Positions 4,668-31,390 of a DNA stretch of 36,877 bases are shown here, piece by piece (positions within the stretch are counted from its first letter, which is position 1; each line of letters opens with the position of its first letter). Source of the stretch: a virus; the IMG/VR virus record IMGVR_UViG_3300010334_000131, positions 1 to 36,877 of that record. The stretch is one strand, 5' to 3'. A program made the translations under genes and the position numbers. The notes beneath the pieces were generated by a model. That model did not search any database and was not told where the DNA came from. It saw only the letters and a program-made list of their open reading frames with translations.

Positions 4668-4674
4668 ATAAATA
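4668..4674 (+). promoter_or_regulatory. Late promoter (ATAAATA) upstream of the 274-residue structural gene
   Basis: CATAAATA, with an expected +1 near 4680 and therefore an 85-base leader to the ATG at 4765. This leader is longer than at the other late genes in the window. Confidence 0.65.
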
Positions 4675-4764: not shown

Positions 4765-5589
4765 ATGGGAAGATCACTTAAAATACAAAAAACAAACATT
4801 GGATCTGGATCCACTGTAACAGGCAATCCACCTGTAACCGCCTACAATCAAAACGTGCTTACAGATGCAGGCTTCACATCCTTTGGCAACTTGATTGATC
4901 CTGATGCTGGCAGCGGTACAGGACTCACTAACAGTCAGTTCCTGGGTGTGGTAGGCGGTGTACCTGCCACCAGTAATCCCAGTGCTACTTTTCCAGAAGT
5001 GTTGACTCAAGCCAATATCTTGCTGGCTGATGGCACAAATACTGCTTACGGTAACAGTCAAATTCTACGACAAAAAGGCGCACACAAGTTTATGGTTGCT
5101 AACTTAGATAGCATAACCAGTGATGGTAGTTTTATTGTAGGTCAAGCATACCAAATTGCCTCATTGGGTAATACTGCCTGGACCAGTTATGGTGCTCCTA
5201 CTACCGTGGCAGTGGGTGACGTTTTCACCGCAACTTCGGTAGGCGGCGCAGGCACAGGAACTGCTTATCCAGTGGGCACTTGTGTGTTGCAAAACTCAGC
5301 CACACCAACTGCTGGTTTTATGAGTGTGGGCTACACGTTCAATGGTGGTAGCACTACCTATGCTAGTTATATCACTAACAAGTGGGTGCGTGACTGGAAC
5401 GGCATGACATATGGCAACTATAACAATGGCAATGATGGTGAAAATATCTATTCCAACGAAAACTACTATGTGACCAACTTCTTTAGCAATGTGGGCACAG
5501 TGACATTGAGTGGTGCAGACGTGATCAACAGCGCACCAGGCAACAACGGTTCTGTGTATATTGCACAGATCGACAACGTTACAAGTTAA
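4765..5589 (+). CDS. Putative virion structural protein (MGRSLKIQK family)
   Basis: A 274-residue Gly/Ser/Thr/Asn-rich protein without membrane segments. The opening MGRSLKIQKTNIGSGS resembles small structural proteins found near fibre genes in marine T4-like phages. An inserted module at about residues 120-170 (FIVGQAYQIASLGNTAWT ... VGDVFTATSVGGAGTGTAYP) is of a type I have seen in many phage tail proteins. The C-terminal third is rich in Asn and Tyr (GNYNNGNDGENIYSNENYYV). The gene has its own late promoter, a good Shine-Dalgarno and its own terminator, so it is a single-gene unit. The precise role is unknown; a baseplate or fibre-associated part is the best guess. Confidence 0.6.
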   Translation: MGRSLKIQKTNIGSGSTVTGNPPVTAYNQNVLTDAGFTSFGNLIDPDAGSGTGLTNSQFLGVVGGVPATSNPSATFPEVLTQANILLADGTNTAYGNSQILRQKGAHKFMVANLDSITSDGSFIVGQAYQIASLGNTAWTSYGAPTTVAVGDVFTATSVGGAGTGTAYPVGTCVLQNSATPTAGFMSVGYTFNGGSTTYASYITNKWVRDWNGMTYGNYNNGNDGENIYSNENYYVTNFFSNVGTVTLSGADVINSAPGNNGSVYIAQIDNVTS

Positions 5590-24271: not shown

Positions 24272-24300
24272 TTGACCAAAAAACCCTGATCTGTTATAAT
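24272..24300 (+). promoter_or_regulatory. Sigma70-type promoter of the 378-residue gene
   Basis: TTGACC at 24272-24277, 17-base spacer, consensus TATAAT at 24295-24300. This is the best host-type promoter in the window. A leader of roughly 16 bases with GGAG (24314-24317) precedes the ATG at 24323. It is divergent from the gp14 late promoter. Confidence 0.85.
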
Positions 24301-24322: not shown

Positions 24323-25459
24323 ATGAAAGTCACTACCGCACTCAAGCCTCTTAACCCACGTAGTCCTGACACCAAATATGTAGGACTGGAACCCATGTGG
24401 CGCAATCAGCCCACAGAGGGTCGTATCAGTGCATTGAGCACAGCGTTTGGTTGGTACAACTACTTTTATGGCAAAAAAGAAGCCAAGGACTTTGCTGTGG
24501 CTTACTTGGACTCGCATGAAAAAACCCGAGAAGCACGACAGGTGCGTACCTTGCCAGACAGCCAGATGCGTCTTACCACAGGTTGGCTATGCCGTATGAG
24601 TATGATGGGCTTGCAGTTGAGTGACCATGAGCAGATACAACTGGACAATCTAATCGCAGAACTTGTGGCCATCAAACAAGAAATGCAAGCCGAAGCCGAA
24701 GTGTCAGATGATGAGCCTGCCAGACCCAACATTCAGGACCGACTGCGTGAAAAAGTATCAGAGTGCAGTGCTGAACTAGAAGCCATGTTTGACGAGTTTA
24801 TGACAGCAGGTGCTAAAATGTCAGCAGACTTCAAACCCATCATGGTGATCCGTGGCATGAATGTGGCACCACAAATGATCAGTGTGATCAGTCATCACTG
24901 GAAAGCCCGACTGGAAGAGTTTGAACAGGCCATTGAGGGCAAGGACTCTCAACTGGTTGAAGCCTACAGTTTCCTCTCCAAGATTCAATTGCGTAATTGC
25001 GTAAAGTTTTGTGAAGCAGTGATCAATGACTGCGGTGCTTATGTACAGATCAAGAAAGTGGAACGCAAGCCACGCAAGGTCAAAGCAGTGCCTCCAGAAA
25101 AACGTGCGGCAAAATTCAAAATCCAGGCAGAGTTTGCCGACCTCAAACTCAAAAGTTTGCCTGCCGCAAGCCTAGTGGACCGGGCCGAAGCCTGGTTGTA
25201 CGACACCAAAAAACGCAAGTTGATCCACCTTGTGGCCGACAGCCACACACAGGCGTTTACTGTGAAAAACAATTCAATCATTGGATTTAGTACTGTAGAA
25301 ACACAACAAAAGACTCTGCGTAAACCAGCGGAAGTGGTGCGAGCAGTACAAGCCGCAGGCAAGCCGGCCGCACGTAAGTTGTTCAAGGAGATCAAGGCCA
25401 CAGAAACTGCCTGGAACGGGCGCGGTACTGAAAACTTGATCATTCTCAAGAGTTGGTAA
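24323..25459 (+). CDS. Conserved phage protein of unknown function, 378 residues
   Basis: No catalytic motif or membrane segment is seen. The protein is charged and helical, with a short coiled-coil-like acidic segment at about 113-145 (ELVAIKQEMQAEAEVSDDEP). The C-terminal part (RAAKFKIQAEFADLKLKSLP, then AEAWLYDTKKRKLIHLVADS and NNSIIGFSTVETQQKTLRKP) resembles a conserved uncharacterised protein I associate with T4-like cyanophages, which has a WVYNTKTRKL-type stretch in the same place. It has its own consensus sigma70 promoter and Shine-Dalgarno, so early expression is likely although it lies among neck genes. Transcripts would run into gp13. A DNA- or RNA-binding role would fit the lysine-rich composition but is not shown. 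Confidence 0.65.
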   Translation: MKVTTALKPLNPRSPDTKYVGLEPMWRNQPTEGRISALSTAFGWYNYFYGKKEAKDFAVAYLDSHEKTREARQVRTLPDSQMRLTTGWLCRMSMMGLQLSDHEQIQLDNLIAELVAIKQEMQAEAEVSDDEPARPNIQDRLREKVSECSAELEAMFDEFMTAGAKMSADFKPIMVIRGMNVAPQMISVISHHWKARLEEFEQAIEGKDSQLVEAYSFLSKIQLRNCVKFCEAVINDCGAYVQIKKVERKPRKVKAVPPEKRAAKFKIQAEFADLKLKSLPAASLVDRAEAWLYDTKKRKLIHLVADSHTQAFTVKNNSIIGFSTVETQQKTLRKPAEVVRAVQAAGKPAARKLFKEIKATETAWNGRGTENLIILKSW

Positions 25460-25463
25460 CGGG

Positions 25464-25470
25464 CTAAATA
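25464..25470 (+). promoter_or_regulatory. Late promoter (CTAAATA) of gp13
   Basis: CTAAATA ends 18 bases before the ATG at 25489. The expected +1 near 25476 lies inside the left arm of the gp13 hairpin. Confidence 0.7.
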
Positions 25471-25490
25471 TTGGGGACGGAGTCCCCAAT
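25470..25490 (+). promoter_or_regulatory. Start-codon-sequestering hairpin of gp13
   Basis: Perfect 9-bp stem: left arm ATTGGGGAC (25470-25478), loop GGA (25479-25481), right arm GTCCCCAAT (25482-25490). The right arm includes the A and U of the gp13 start codon, and the Shine-Dalgarno GGAG (25479-25482) fills the loop. RNA read through from the upstream gene can form it; RNA started at the late promoter lacks most of the left arm. Confidence 0.8.
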
Positions 25491-26256
25491 GGCCGAAACA
25501 GAAAATTCTTTAGTTACCCTTAAATCTGCATTATACGATTATGTACGCCTGACTCTAGGCGATCAAATTGTGGATCTTGAATTGGATCCTGCGCACTATG
25601 AAGCCGCTTATCAGCGCACCATTGGCACTTACCGCCAACGAGCCAACAATGCCTATGAAGAAAGTTACAGTTTCATGGAGTTGGTGAACCAGCAAAACAT
25701 CTATACTTTGCCTCAAGAAGTGCAGAGTGTGCGTCAAATCTTTAGACGTACATTTGGCATTGCCACAGGACCTTTTGGATCAAACTTTGACCCGTTCAGT
25801 CAAGCACAAATGAACGTGTACTTGATTAACTTCAACCAAGCCGGAGGCCTGGCCACTTATGACTTCTACAGCCAATATGTTGAACTGGCCGCACGTATGT
25901 TTGGTGGTTATCTAAACTACACTTGGAATCCTGTGACCAAGAAACTGCAACTGATCCGTAGCCCCCCTGGTGGTGGCGAGGTTGTGTTGCTTTGGACCTA
26001 TAATCTCAAACCCGAAATCCAATTGCTGAGTGATTACCAAATCAGTCAATGGGTCCGTGACTACATGGTTGCGGCCTGCAAGATGATCATTGGCGAAGCA
26101 CGTGAGAAGTTTGGCACAATTGCTGGTCCACAAGGCGGCGGCACCCTAAACGGTACAGCCATGAAAGCCGAAGCACAGACCCAAATGGATGCCAAGATAC
26201 AAGAACTGGTCATGTATGTGGATGGTTCACAACCGCTTACCTTTGTGATTGGGTAA
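25489..26256 (+). CDS. 13: Neck protein gp13
   Basis: gp13 sits between portal and gp14 and completes the DNA-filled head. The 255-residue protein starts with the helical segment typical of the family (LKSALYDYVRLTLGDQIVDL, then ELDPAHYEAAYQRTIGTYRQ), then NIYTLPQEVQSVRQIFRRTF and a beta segment, YLNYTWNPVTKKLQLIRSPP, followed by EVVLLWTYNLKPE. The C-terminal helix (VRDYMVAACKMIIGEAREKF) is also usual. T4 gp13 is 309 residues. An in-frame TTG at 25471 is possible, but GGAG six bases before the ATG at 25489 favours the latter. gp14 lies on the other strand with one gene between, unlike the 13-14-15 run of T4. Confidence 0.85.
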   Translation: MAETENSLVTLKSALYDYVRLTLGDQIVDLELDPAHYEAAYQRTIGTYRQRANNAYEESYSFMELVNQQNIYTLPQEVQSVRQIFRRTFGIATGPFGSNFDPFSQAQMNVYLINFNQAGGLATYDFYSQYVELAARMFGGYLNYTWNPVTKKLQLIRSPPGGGEVVLLWTYNLKPEIQLLSDYQISQWVRDYMVAACKMIIGEAREKFGTIAGPQGGGTLNGTAMKAEAQTQMDAKIQELVMYVDGSQPLTFVIG

Positions 26257-26263
26257 TTCAAGT

Positions 26264-26292
26264 TTGATTTTAATCTAAAAGTCTGCTATACT
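26264..26292 (+). promoter_or_regulatory. Sigma70-type promoter of the exonuclease-dNMP kinase pair
   Basis: TTGATT at 26264-26269, 17-base spacer, TATACT at 26287-26292. The ATG at 26299 lies seven bases after the -10, so +1 falls at or within a base or two of the start codon. No Shine-Dalgarno is present. Confidence 0.75.
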
Positions 26293-26298
26293 ACATGT

Positions 26299-26820
26299 AT
26301 GGCAGACATTATGATTGACATTGAAGGTCTTGCAACGGGACCAGATGCTACTATTCTTACAATAGCGGCGCAAACTTTTGACCCATTGAGCAGTGGGTAT
26401 TATCCACGACAATATTATGCTCGAATAACATTAGAGAGCCAGGAAGATCGAAAGATCGAACAGGGCACCATAGACTGGTGGGCAACTCAAAAAGAAGCGC
26501 AGGCAGAAGCATTTGCTGAAGATGGGCGTATTCCACTGGACCAAGCACTAAAAGAATTACACAAACTGACCTGGCAATGTAATAGAGTATGGATGAACGG
26601 GCCAACGTATGATGCTAATATCTTAGAACACGCTTACAAAAGTTATGGAATGGGATTGCCATGGCAGTATTACAAAATTAGAGATACTAGAACCATTTAC
26701 AGTTTGTGGTCCGAACTGCCCAAGCCGCCTACAAGTCATCATGCGCTAGAGGACTGTCGCCGACAAATTGGACTGTTACAAGATACGCTTAAATACCTCA
26801 AAGTAAAGGAACTGGTATGA
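26299..26820 (+). CDS. DEDD-family 3'-5' exonuclease (DexA/Rv2179c-like)
   Basis: The 173-residue protein has the exonuclease motifs in order: MIDIEGL near residue 5 (Asp7 and Glu9), WMNGPTYDANILEHAY near 97-112 with the second acidic position, and HHALEDC near 147-152, matching the H-x-A-x-x-D ending of DEDDh enzymes. WWATQKEAQAEA between motifs is characteristic of the Rv2179c-like group, which I believe includes T4 DexA. The role is 3'-5' degradation of DNA or RNA, probably for nucleotide recycling or RNA turnover. A second ATG at 26311 would cut into motif I, so the first is chosen. It overlaps the kinase gene by four bases (ATGA). Confidence 0.82.
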   Translation: MADIMIDIEGLATGPDATILTIAAQTFDPLSSGYYPRQYYARITLESQEDRKIEQGTIDWWATQKEAQAEAFAEDGRIPLDQALKELHKLTWQCNRVWMNGPTYDANILEHAYKSYGMGLPWQYYKIRDTRTIYSLWSELPKPPTSHHALEDCRRQIGLLQDTLKYLKVKELV

Positions 26821-27482
26821 TCATTGGAGTATGTGGTTTTATATCATCCGGAAAAGATACTGTTGCTGATTATCTTACCAACTTTCATGGATTTCGTAGA
26901 GAATCATTTGCCGCAACCTTGAAAGATGCAGTGGCACAGGTATTTGGTTGGGATCGAACCATGCTGGAAGGCCGTACCACACAGGCCCGCGCCTGGCGCG
27001 AACAGGTAGATCCCTGGTGGGCAGAACGCTTGAACATGCCCACACTGACTCCACGCTGGATCTTGCAGTACTGGGGAACAGAAGTGTGTAGAGCCGGATT
27101 CCACGATGATATCTGGATTGCCAGTTTAGAAAACAAACTGCGCCACAGCCAAGATGATATTGTGATCAGCGACTGCCGTTTTCCTAACGAAATACGGGCT
27201 ATCAAAAATGCCGGCGGGCAAGTGATCAGAGTTGTGCGTGGCTCAGAGCCCAAGTGGTATGATGCGGCAGTGAGTGTGAATCGTGGTGCCAATGGTAATT
27301 CCACCTGGGCATTAAGCATGAGAAAATTAGAGAAACTAGGCATTCATGCTTCAGAAACTGCCTGGGTAGGCACTCAATTTGATTATGTACTAGATAACAA
27401 CAACACTGTGGATGATTTGTATCAACAGGTCAATGATCTACTTGCAGGTCTCCAGGTCGCCAAGGCACAGCCAGGCGCCTGA
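26817..27482 (+). CDS. 1: Deoxynucleoside monophosphate kinase (T4 gp1-like)
   Basis: The 221-residue protein begins MIIGVCGFISSGKDTVADYL, containing a P-loop (GFISSGKDT). Further features of the phage dNMP kinase group are RESFAATLKDAVAQVFGWDR, the LQYWGTEVCR segment near residue 85, and VISDCRFPNEIRAIKNAGGQ around 120-140, ending in a basic region that carries the lid. The enzyme phosphorylates dNMPs to feed phage DNA synthesis. T4 gp1 is 241 residues. AAAGGA precedes the ATG, which overlaps the exonuclease stop. The 3' end overlaps the convergent zinc-ribbon gene by 53 bases. This early-type metabolic gene lies inside the late structural region behind its own host-type promoter. Confidence 0.87.
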   Translation: MIIGVCGFISSGKDTVADYLTNFHGFRRESFAATLKDAVAQVFGWDRTMLEGRTTQARAWREQVDPWWAERLNMPTLTPRWILQYWGTEVCRAGFHDDIWIASLENKLRHSQDDIVISDCRFPNEIRAIKNAGGQVIRVVRGSEPKWYDAAVSVNRGANGNSTWALSMRKLEKLGIHASETAWVGTQFDYVLDNNNTVDDLYQQVNDLLAGLQVAKAQPGA

Positions 27483-27871: not shown

Positions 27872-30800
27872 ATGGCACTAGTTTCACCAGGTGTACAAGT
27901 CACCATCGTCGACGAAAGCAATTATCTTCCAGCCGCAACTAATTCGGTACCTTACTTTTTGATTGCCACAGCGCAGGACAAAGTTTCTGGTTCCGGAGTG
28001 GGAGTAGCCGCTGGCACACTCAAGGCCAATGCCAACAAGGCCTATTTGATTACTAGCCAAAGAGATTTGACTGCCACTTTTGGTAATCCATTCTTTTATA
28101 AGACCACAATTGGCACTCCAATCAATGGTTATGAACTCAACGAATATGGCCTGCTTGCTGCCTATTCTGCACTGGGTGTGACCAACAGAGCATACATTCA
28201 GCGTTGTGACATTGATTTGACACAACTCACAGCCAGTTTAGTTCGCCCAACAGGTGAACCCAACAATGGAGCCTACTGGTTAGACACCGGCAACACCTTA
28301 TGGGGAATCTTTGAGTGGAACATAGTTACAGCCACGTTTTCAAATGTGGTGCCCAGTGTGATCACTGACACTGTGTATCTTTCTTCAGGTGTGCCAGTGG
28401 GCAGTTATGGCAACATTGGCGATTACACAGTGGTTGCCACCAACACAGCCAATCCTGTGTACTACAAAAACGGTGCAGCCACCACGTCTCAAACCACTGC
28501 TAGTGCTTTGAGCAGTCTTTACAACACCTGGGTTCTTGTGGGCAGTAATGCTTGGAAATTGAGTTATCCCACTGTGACTGGTGACAACGCCGTGAGTGCA
28601 GATTTGACTGCTGGCAACATTATCATTATCAACGGTACCACAGTTACAGTTCCTGCAAGTCCCAACAATACCCTGGCTGGACTCAGTGCCGCCGTCAACA
28701 CAGCAGCCATCACAGGTGTATACAGTGCTGTGATAGACAACAAGTTCTGTTTGTTTGCCAACGCTGATGCCAATGTCAGTGGAAACAATCAAAACAATGG
28801 AGTGATCTTGATTGCCAGTGGCAGCACCTCCGGCCTGCTGACCACACTGGGCATCACAGCCAACGAAAACTATTTTGCGCCTTCTTTGTTGGCCAGCAAC
28901 AGTTATGAAAACCCCAACTGGCGCGATGGTGGCCCTTCACCACGTCCTACTGGCAGCGTTTGGAACATGACCAACAGTGTTAATCTTGGTACCACCATGG
29001 TTGTCAAGAAATACTCTACTGCTTTGGCAGCCTTTGTACAACAAAGTGCAGTGGTCTATCAAGACGACTGGGAAGCCAATGCCAATTTGGATGCCACTGG
29101 AGGCGGCAAGAACATTGCCGCAGGCACAACTTATACACAGTACAATGCTGTCACAGTCAGCAATTCCGGCGGTGCAACTCCTGGCACAGTGTATACTCCA
29201 GAACCAAATGGTGCAACAGGCAATTATCCCTTCAATCCTGCCTACACTCTGCAGGTATTTGAAAGAACTCAAACAGGCAGCACAGTGATCACCGGTGATA
29301 CTGATACTGCCACATTTACTGTTGGTAACTCTTTTTATATTAGAACTTCCACGGCCAACAGTTCAACATTGACCGATCCTGTGTTGGTCACTCTGACAGG
29401 TACTACCCCCACCGACTTTGTTACAGCAGTGAGTCATGCGGCTGTGCCCAATGTCAGTGCCACAATTGACAACAATGATTATATTGTGTTCACACAGGCC
29501 ATTGGCGGTGTGATTTTATTACAAAATGTATCAGGAACACCTGTTGCAAGCGCAGGCTTTAACAACACAGTAACTGGATGCAGATGGCAAATAGTGGGCA
29601 CCAGTGCCACAGCAGCCAATGATGAATGGCTACAGTTGAGCAACTGGGTTCCATTGTCCTATACTGCCAGTGCAGTAGCCCCAGGACAAGATCCTGCTAC
29701 CGGTCGATATTGGTATTACAGTGCCACCAATCAAGTGGACATCATGATTCAAACTGGCTCAGGCTGGGCAGGTTATCTCAACGGCGGCACCGACATCCGC
29801 GGTGATGTGCTGGGCAACACCAACTCCACAGGACCCATTATCAGCGCCACAGCACCCACAACACAAAGTGATGGTACACCATTAGTCTACGGCGATTTGT
29901 GGATTGATACCTCAAATCTCGAACTGTATCCAGTGATCAATCGTTGGTCAGTGGTGAGTGGTGTGGACCAATGGATCACCTTGGACAACACAGATCAGAC
30001 CACACAAAACGGTGTGTTGTTTGCTGACGCTCGCTGGAGTCCAACTGGCACAGCAAACCCAATCACGGATCCTGTGCCTTCTATCACCAGTTTGTTGAGC
30101 AGTAACTATCTGGACATTGATGCGCCTGACTACACCCTGTATCCAACAGGCATGTTGTTGTTTAACACACGTCGTTCTGGTTTCAATGTGAAAAGTTTCC
30201 AGGCCGACTATTTCAATGCCACGTCATTTGCATACCCAAGTTGGAGTAACTCAACTACCTATGCCAAGGGCAGTCAAGTGTTGTACAACACAACATTGTA
30301 TGTGGGCATTGTGAATTCTATTCCTACAGGCACAGTGCCTACCAATACCAGTTACTGGGCAGAATTGCAAGTGAACAGTTGGGTCACAGCCAGTGGCAAC
30401 CGTGATTCAGGCGCTCCCAACATGGGCCGTTTTGCTCAACGTGAATTGATTGTGGCAGCACTCAAAGCAGGAATTGACACCAGCGTGACCATCAGAGAAG
30501 AACAAAATCAATTCAACCTGACAGCATGTACTGCTTATCCAGAATTGATTCCCAACATGTTGGCACTCAGCAATGAGCGCAACAACACAGTGTTTGTGGT
30601 GGGTGACACTCCCATGAGACTGCCAGCAGACAGCGCCGAAATAGTTAGTTATGCAACCAACAATGGCGGTGCTGGTTATGCCACAGGCGATGGACTCACA
30701 GTTGCTTCTCCATATGTGGGCGTGTTCTGGCCCAGTTGCCAGACCACAGACTTGTCGGGATCCGCCGTGGTCACAGCGCCAAGCCATATGATGGTTCGTA

Positions 30801-31390
30801 CCATGATCCGTAATGATGAGGTGGCTTATCCATGGTTGGCACCAGCAGGTACTCGTCGTGGTGTGGTTGACAACGCTGACCGGATTGGTTACATCAATGC
30901 TCAAACAGGCGAGTTCATTACCTTGGGTGTGAATCAAGCCTTGCGTGATGTGTTGTATACCAACCGCGTGAACCCGATTACATTTGTGCCCGGAGTTGGT
31001 ATAACAAACTTTGGTAACAAGACCACCCAGTCAGTGGCCAGCAGTCTGGATCGCATCAACGTGGCACGCCTGGTGGTGTTTATCCGTGCTAGATTGGAAG
31101 AAATTGGCAAGCAGTTCTTGTTTGAACCCAATGATCAAATCACACGCGATGAAGTTAAAAATGCGGTCAACAGCCTCATGATCAACTTGGTGGCCAAGCG
31201 TGGTATCTATGACTATTTGGTAGTTTGTGATGACACCAACAACACACCGGCCAGAATTGATGCCAATGAGTTATGGGTGGACATTGCAATTGAACCTGTC
31301 AAGGCAGTGGAATTTATCTACATACCAATCCGACTCAAGAACACAGGCTCGATCGCAGCCGGCCAAGTGGCTTCTGCTCAAGCAGTCTAA
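27872..31390 (+). CDS. 18: Contractile tail sheath protein gp18, extra-large
   Basis: The N-terminus (MALVSPGVQVTIVDESNYLP, then NSVPYFLIATAQDK) and C-terminus (RINVARLVVFIRARLEEIGK, NSLMINLVAKRGIYDYLVVC, ANELWVDIAIEPVKAVEFIY) are those of marine T4-like gp18, which polymerises around the tube and contracts. At 1172 residues it is far longer than T4 gp18 (659). The extra length lies between about residues 120 and 830: Ser/Thr/Asn-rich beta modules, including paired segments like IIINGTTVTVPASPNNTLAG and FTVGNSFYIRTSTANSSTLT, a GDLWIDTSNLELYP block near 675-722, and a carbohydrate-binding-like module near 790-832 (TTYAKGSQVLYNTTLYVG, TSYWAEL). These should decorate the outside of the tail. Late promoter, Shine-Dalgarno and a strong terminator bound the gene. 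Confidence 0.93.
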   Translation: MALVSPGVQVTIVDESNYLPAATNSVPYFLIATAQDKVSGSGVGVAAGTLKANANKAYLITSQRDLTATFGNPFFYKTTIGTPINGYELNEYGLLAAYSALGVTNRAYIQRCDIDLTQLTASLVRPTGEPNNGAYWLDTGNTLWGIFEWNIVTATFSNVVPSVITDTVYLSSGVPVGSYGNIGDYTVVATNTANPVYYKNGAATTSQTTASALSSLYNTWVLVGSNAWKLSYPTVTGDNAVSADLTAGNIIIINGTTVTVPASPNNTLAGLSAAVNTAAITGVYSAVIDNKFCLFANADANVSGNNQNNGVILIASGSTSGLLTTLGITANENYFAPSLLASNSYENPNWRDGGPSPRPTGSVWNMTNSVNLGTTMVVKKYSTALAAFVQQSAVVYQDDWEANANLDATGGGKNIAAGTTYTQYNAVTVSNSGGATPGTVYTPEPNGATGNYPFNPAYTLQVFERTQTGSTVITGDTDTATFTVGNSFYIRTSTANSSTLTDPVLVTLTGTTPTDFVTAVSHAAVPNVSATIDNNDYIVFTQAIGGVILLQNVSGTPVASAGFNNTVTGCRWQIVGTSATAANDEWLQLSNWVPLSYTASAVAPGQDPATGRYWYYSATNQVDIMIQTGSGWAGYLNGGTDIRGDVLGNTNSTGPIISATAPTTQSDGTPLVYGDLWIDTSNLELYPVINRWSVVSGVDQWITLDNTDQTTQNGVLFADARWSPTGTANPITDPVPSITSLLSSNYLDIDAPDYTLYPTGMLLFNTRRSGFNVKSFQADYFNATSFAYPSWSNSTTYAKGSQVLYNTTLYVGIVNSIPTGTVPTNTSYWAELQVNSWVTASGNRDSGAPNMGRFAQRELIVAALKAGIDTSVTIREEQNQFNLTACTAYPELIPNMLALSNERNNTVFVVGDTPMRLPADSAEIVSYATNNGGAGYATGDGLTVASPYVGVFWPSCQTTDLSGSAVVTAPSHMMVRTMIRNDEVAYPWLAPAGTRRGVVDNADRIGYINAQTGEFITLGVNQALRDVLYTNRVNPITFVPGVGITNFGNKTTQSVASSLDRINVARLVVFIRARLEEIGKQFLFEPNDQITRDEVKNAVNSLMINLVAKRGIYDYLVVCDDTNNTPARIDANELWVDIAIEPVKAVEFIYIPIRLKNTGSIAAGQVASAQAV

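Follow-up and report, generated by a model that had tools for sequence, protein, structure and literature searches.

A hairpin at the gp13 start of a freshwater phage as a probable T4-type translational lock, with counterparts in distant jumbo phages

The gene for the neck protein gp13 of a freshwater phage begins within a perfect hairpin that overlaps a T4-type late promoter, and sequence comparison makes it very probable that this hairpin is a translational lock of the T4 kind, silent in early RNA and active in late RNA. Our analysis deals with a virus record from IMG/VR, 36,877 bases long (the window), a fragment of the phage genome for which megablast retrieved no matches in phage records. 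RNA reading through from the promoter at 24272 and across the upstream gene would carry both arms of the hairpin, with the start codon paired and the GGAG squeezed into a three-base loop, so that ribosomes could not start on it, as we propose; late RNA from CTAAATA would start at about 25476, without most of the left arm, and be translated. Expression of gp13 would thus be repressed and timed such that a virion neck protein is kept off early messages, presumably to the benefit of the phage, though the gene sits between early-type genes. This interpretation, put forward in the initial annotation, is supported by our results; the reach of the device into distant jumbo phages and its tie to a co-directional upstream gene had not been seen there.

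Results

The features of the gp13 region are collected in Table 1. The gp13 homologues carry the annotation neck protein, and the gp13 ATG lies 29 nt past the end of the phrog_11903 gene, whose product, as an AlphaFold model (pLDDT 84, pTM 0.36), gave no PDB fold match at E<=0.001. The sigma70 promoter that had been claimed upstream of gp13 was found and is near consensus; it is presumed to be the source of read-through RNA into gp13, and the same promoter class precedes the orthologous upstream gene in nearly all relatives showing the region. The exonuclease gene has a sigma70-like promoter of its own in most relatives examined. As sigma70-type promoters serve both the upstream gene and the exonuclease, gp13 can be placed between early-type units. 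In most relatives the exonuclease -10 box stands about 6 nt before the first ATG, which suggests a leaderless or nearly leaderless early mRNA (26264-26311), and the start of this gene is spanned by an 11-bp inverted repeat (26281-26307).

Table 1. Features at and around the gp13 start, in window coordinates
Feature	Position	Strand	Remarks
sigma70-type promoter TTGACC-17-TATAAT	24272..24300	+	11/12 matches, TG before -10
378-aa gene upstream of gp13	24323..25459	+	phrog_11903, function unknown
Outer helix, 5' strand GGCU (optional)	25462..25465	+	pairs with 25491-25494 in MFE fold
T4-type late promoter CTAAATA	25464..25470	+	last base is first base of stem
Hairpin left arm ATTGGGGAC	25470..25478	+	sequence, fold, compensatory changes in relatives
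Predicted late transcription start	25476 (+/-1)	+	~6 nt past last A, inferred from T4 late promoter geometry
Hairpin loop GGA	25479-25481	+	
Shine-Dalgarno GGAG	25479..25482	+	GGA is the loop, last G in stem
Hairpin right arm GTCCCCAAT	25482..25490	+	takes in AU of start codon
gp13 start codon ATG	25489-25491	+	
gp13, head-tail adaptor Ad2 / neck protein, 255 aa	25489..26256	+	phrog_211, E 7.9e-26
sigma70-like promoter of exonuclease gene	26264..26292	+	ends ~6 nt before first ATG
Exonuclease (Rv2179c-like), gene after gp13	26299..26820	+	
Deoxynucleoside monophosphate kinase (dNMP kinase)	26817..27482	+	tail sheath comes next
Tail sheath	27872-31390		

All nine pairs of the stem are Watson-Crick, and the 9-bp perfect stem taking in the AU of the gp13 start codon was located correctly to the base in the initial annotation; its placing of GGAG in the loop holds for GGA and fails for the last G (25482), which pairs with C25478. 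The 4-bp outer helix also pairs the G of the ATG and is absent from some relatives. The read-through RNA folds with an MFE of -19.0 kcal/mol (z -3.1; 0/200 shuffles equally stable), RNA from 25476 is predicted to form only weak structure at the start region, and the computed cost of opening the ribosome site is 15.7 kcal/mol in the read-through RNA versus 2.7 in the late RNA. Sequestration of the gp13 start in the longer RNA is a predicted structure, to which the covariation described below lends support. Perfect-stem counts amounted to 9 in the window, from 4 places, against 0-4 per shuffled window; the three other perfect stems of at least 9 bp (loop 3-8) each enter A/T tracts in terminator style. 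No Rfam family was assigned to the gp13 hairpin. Elsewhere in the window Rfam recognised the 'freshwater-2' cis-regulatory RNA RF02980 (4680-4767, 66.7 bits), flanked by an ATAAATA late-type motif (4668-4674) and a 274-aa ORF at 4765, and a further 274-aa ORF (1547-2371), adjoining the major capsid gene, resembles homing endonucleases (phrog_314, E 4e-22).

The late promoter, which had been described as ending at 25470 and overlapping the left arm, was confirmed in the sequence, 18 nt before the gp13 ATG. Across the window and three relatives TAAATA occurs 46 times 15-29 nt upstream of starts, versus 2 occurrences of its reverse complement and 17 of the reversed motif; because of this concentration before start codons it behaves as a promoter element. 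CTAAATA shows no excess in the window, its raw frequency being no higher than chance. Transcription would start near 25476, and for start sites 5-8 nt past the motif the left arm lies upstream of the predicted late start. A late sigma factor family (phrog_12791) was detected in a 300-kb relative, G003 (E 2.7e-73), as well as in PA5oct and XaC1, and was not found in the possibly incomplete contigs G001, G002 and G004; in the G003 leader (L132) the hairpin persists in shortened form, with a weaker score (z -1.2). In the window, CTAAATA also stands just 4 nt before the ATG of a 339-aa ORF at 2445 (2434-2447), which is another possible leaderless late gene, or one whose start is misplaced.

Leaders were scored by the free energy with which bases on either side of the predicted late start pair, compared with shuffles that hold promoter, Shine-Dalgarno and coding bases fixed and whose statistics ignore phylogeny. 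For the gp13 start of the window the score was -15.0 kcal/mol (p 0.003-0.007, z -3.6 to -3.9). Of the 61 late-type starts drawn from the window and three relatives, four gp13 starts included, two others reached the same p and none a lower one; as a group these starts have a median z of 0.0, and 11 have p<=0.05. The 59 distinct gp13 leaders of our comparison set, three cultured relatives among them, gave a median z of -2.4, with 37/59 at p<=0.05, the shuffles again ignoring phylogeny. The same score, applied to T4 as a positive control, returned p<=0.01 for 49, I-TevII, e, segB, soc and I-TevI, all named as hairpin-controlled in reviews (PMC3014915, PMC2988022), whereas T4 gene 13 was absent from the scan, i.e. 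has no such late-type motif near its start. The comparison with early-silent, late-active T4 genes drawn in the initial annotation is thus borne out both by these reviews and by the position of the T4 controls at the top of the score. Strong locks were also recorded at other late-type starts (G002 151025, 89220 and 90762; G003 44554), at genes for tail-fibre-like, IscU-like and tailspike-like proteins, two of them behind IscA-like or nuclease genes. A 129-aa HNH-endonuclease-like gene of G003 (290314, L309) has a hairpin ATAGTAGA/TCTACTAT overlapping its late promoter, in an arrangement resembling that of the T4 homing endonucleases.

The gp13 loci came from two scans of 80 loci each, with many contigs shared, and from a scan of IMG/VR for the pattern CTAAATA..ACGGAG..ATG, whose matches were mainly due to chance, gp13 dominating among the stably folding ones. 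Loss of complementarity in close relatives had been named as the finding that would speak against the hairpin; complementarity is kept, the arms change together, and the compensatory changes that had been asked for were found to have arisen more than once. Perfect alternative stems are ATCAGGGAC/GTCCCTGAT, ATCAGGAAC/GTTCCTGAT, ATTGGGTAC/GTACCCAAT, ATAGGGAAC/GTTCCCTAT (L218) and TATGGAC/GTCCATA (L233), and arm changes such as TTG/CAA to TCA/TGA, GC to TA and GC to AT account for several separate compensatory events on the gp13 tree. Among the 13 distinct leaders with the 18-nt spacing, 4 stem pairs have changed at both bases, and 0/500 shuffles and no slid register reached the covariation score; the three most variable pairs underwent 7 to 9 changes each on the tree, all pair states counted.

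Other leaders have other designs. In L110 the promoter AAATACTC pairs with GAGTATTT, in L146 a 13-bp stem is built around the promoter, and in L056-type leaders CCATAA pairs with TTATGG; almost every leader has its right arm over the Shine-Dalgarno sequence or the start codon. Locks are weak in L133, L104 and L190, and the L142 group has neither a Shine-Dalgarno sequence nor a lock. In L142, L145, L147 and L150 the gp13 ATG follows GTAAATA by only 5 nt, without a Shine-Dalgarno sequence, and the late gp13 mRNA may be leaderless. Among freshwater-group insertions 5' of gp13, pairing is weak or absent in L099 (L009), L142 and L175, is not weakened in L146, and persists as a moderate lock in L134. 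In L009 the gene upstream of gp13 is set apart from it by an inserted A+T-rich gene (~1753-2951) of about 400 aa with no PHROG match, and of the hairpin only the right arm GTACCCAAT survives, other sequence standing in place of the left one.

The comparison also took in jumbo relatives available in culture, at a gp13 identity of about 36-40%. Strong hairpins of unrelated sequence and the same layout are present in XaC1, Salmonella PHA46, Klebsiella K64-1, Serratia BF and Xanthomonas XbC2 (z -7 to -8), and likewise in PA5oct (z -3.9); over the RaK2-like phages and XaC1 as a whole z ranges from -5.6 to -9.4. By lock strength gp13 ranks 1/62 among late-type starts in BF, where it is preceded by a run of metabolic genes and is the first in a stretch of tail genes, and 2/66 in PA5oct. 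The same score found no gp13 lock in Phosso or Atu_ph07, where the gene upstream of gp13 points away. When the jumbo set was extended by further IMG/VR loci, a lock accompanied a co-directional upstream gene in 27/30 leaders versus 1/7 where that gene is divergent (Fisher p 2e-4). The single divergent case with a lock, L368, lies at a contig end where orientation is unclear; the co-directional leaders without a lock are L370, L375 and L417. Independent orientation switches on the tree number only 3-4, none against expectation, and a sign test is not significant.

Discussion

A perfect dyad beside a promoter, with some arms identical in many phages, could also be a DNA-level palindrome, that is, an operator over the late promoter, its symmetry maintained for binding by a dimeric protein. 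We consider this quite improbable, since arm sequences vary freely with pairing kept and G-U pairs tolerated, loop length and register vary, the promoter itself falls in the left arm or the loop in L146, L110, XaC1 and BF, the right arm is so regularly placed over the Shine-Dalgarno sequence or start codon, and locks track co-directional upstream genes. It is likewise improbable that the hairpin terminates the upstream unit, stopping its RNA before the late promoter restarts transcription. In XaC1 and the RaK2-like phages a U run stands between the hairpin and the ATG, and because of it termination may add to the lock there; for the window hairpin this reading was rejected, as no U run follows it (AATGGCCGAAAC) and it is not among the terminator-like sites, and the U run is absent in freshwater relatives too. 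Translational coupling was considered and rejected. The footprint of a ribosome terminating at the upstream stop, 29 nt before the ATG, would end about where the gp13 stem begins, and such a ribosome would therefore not be expected to open the stem.

A signal for mRNA processing or decay is very improbable. T4 RegB cleaves within GGAG sequences at sites of translation initiation (PMC3014915), and here GGAG stands at the hairpin loop as it might for a RegB-like RNase; however, REGB_T4 (PF10715) was not found in the contigs of six relatives, which may be incomplete (T4 control 1e-69), and in other clades the Shine-Dalgarno sequence is in the stem. Nor can the hairpin serve as a 5' stabiliser of late RNA, because late RNA would be made without it. 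That a chance hairpin was simply kept by shared ancestry, as the near-identical leaders of many contigs might suggest, is scarcely credible, being already contradicted by the covariation with its repeated double changes on the tree and 0/500 shuffles, and by the wholly different arms of distant phages. Sequence evidence thus indicates that the gp13 hairpin is a real, selected RNA lock.

It is the breadth and gene specificity of the gp13 lock that make it interesting. Start-codon locks, Shine-Dalgarno locks and locks with a U run all occur across these phages, and we are inclined to favour, with some reserve, the view that jumbo phages of the T4 superfamily have long used a lock specific to gp13 for timing. 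Its sequence and design would have turned over completely while the lock itself persisted, with a tendency to disappear where the gene upstream is divergent or where inserted DNA parts the two units. Its function would have preserved it, since RNA coming from early-type genes often meets gp13 before any other structural gene. The gp13 lock, for which there is covariation evidence, would bring a well-known regulatory device of T4 to a central virion gene and to remote giant phages; the orientation of the upstream gene provides a built-in natural control, and the lock suggests that neck protein made too early is costly. A simple sequence score finds such locks in unannotated phage genomes.

The mechanism itself is already known; its occurrence at gp13 and in these phages is, within the literature searched, new. 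The available text on the RaK2-like phage CBB describes an ATAAATA motif before structural genes, a gp55-like sigma factor and neck protein in the virions, with no mention of a gp13 leader hairpin found in it (PMC5259590). In T4 gene e late promoters overlap the 5' arm, the long early RNA is silent, with about 100-fold less lysozyme, and the late RNA is active (PMC3014915). The gp13 start shares with this lysozyme gene a late promoter overlapping the 5' arm, and differs in gene and sequence and in that its loop presents the GGAG and its stem takes up the AU of the ATG. In T4 soc, 49, I-TevI, I-TevII and segB, and in Aeh1 mobE, the ribosome binding site is sequestered in upstream-initiated RNA and freed by a late promoter (PMC2988022). 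The gp13 hairpin resembles these five T4 genes in giving a low p by the same score; unlike gp13, the T4 and Aeh1 cases are endonucleases, a capsid accessory protein and a resolvase, and none is a neck gene.
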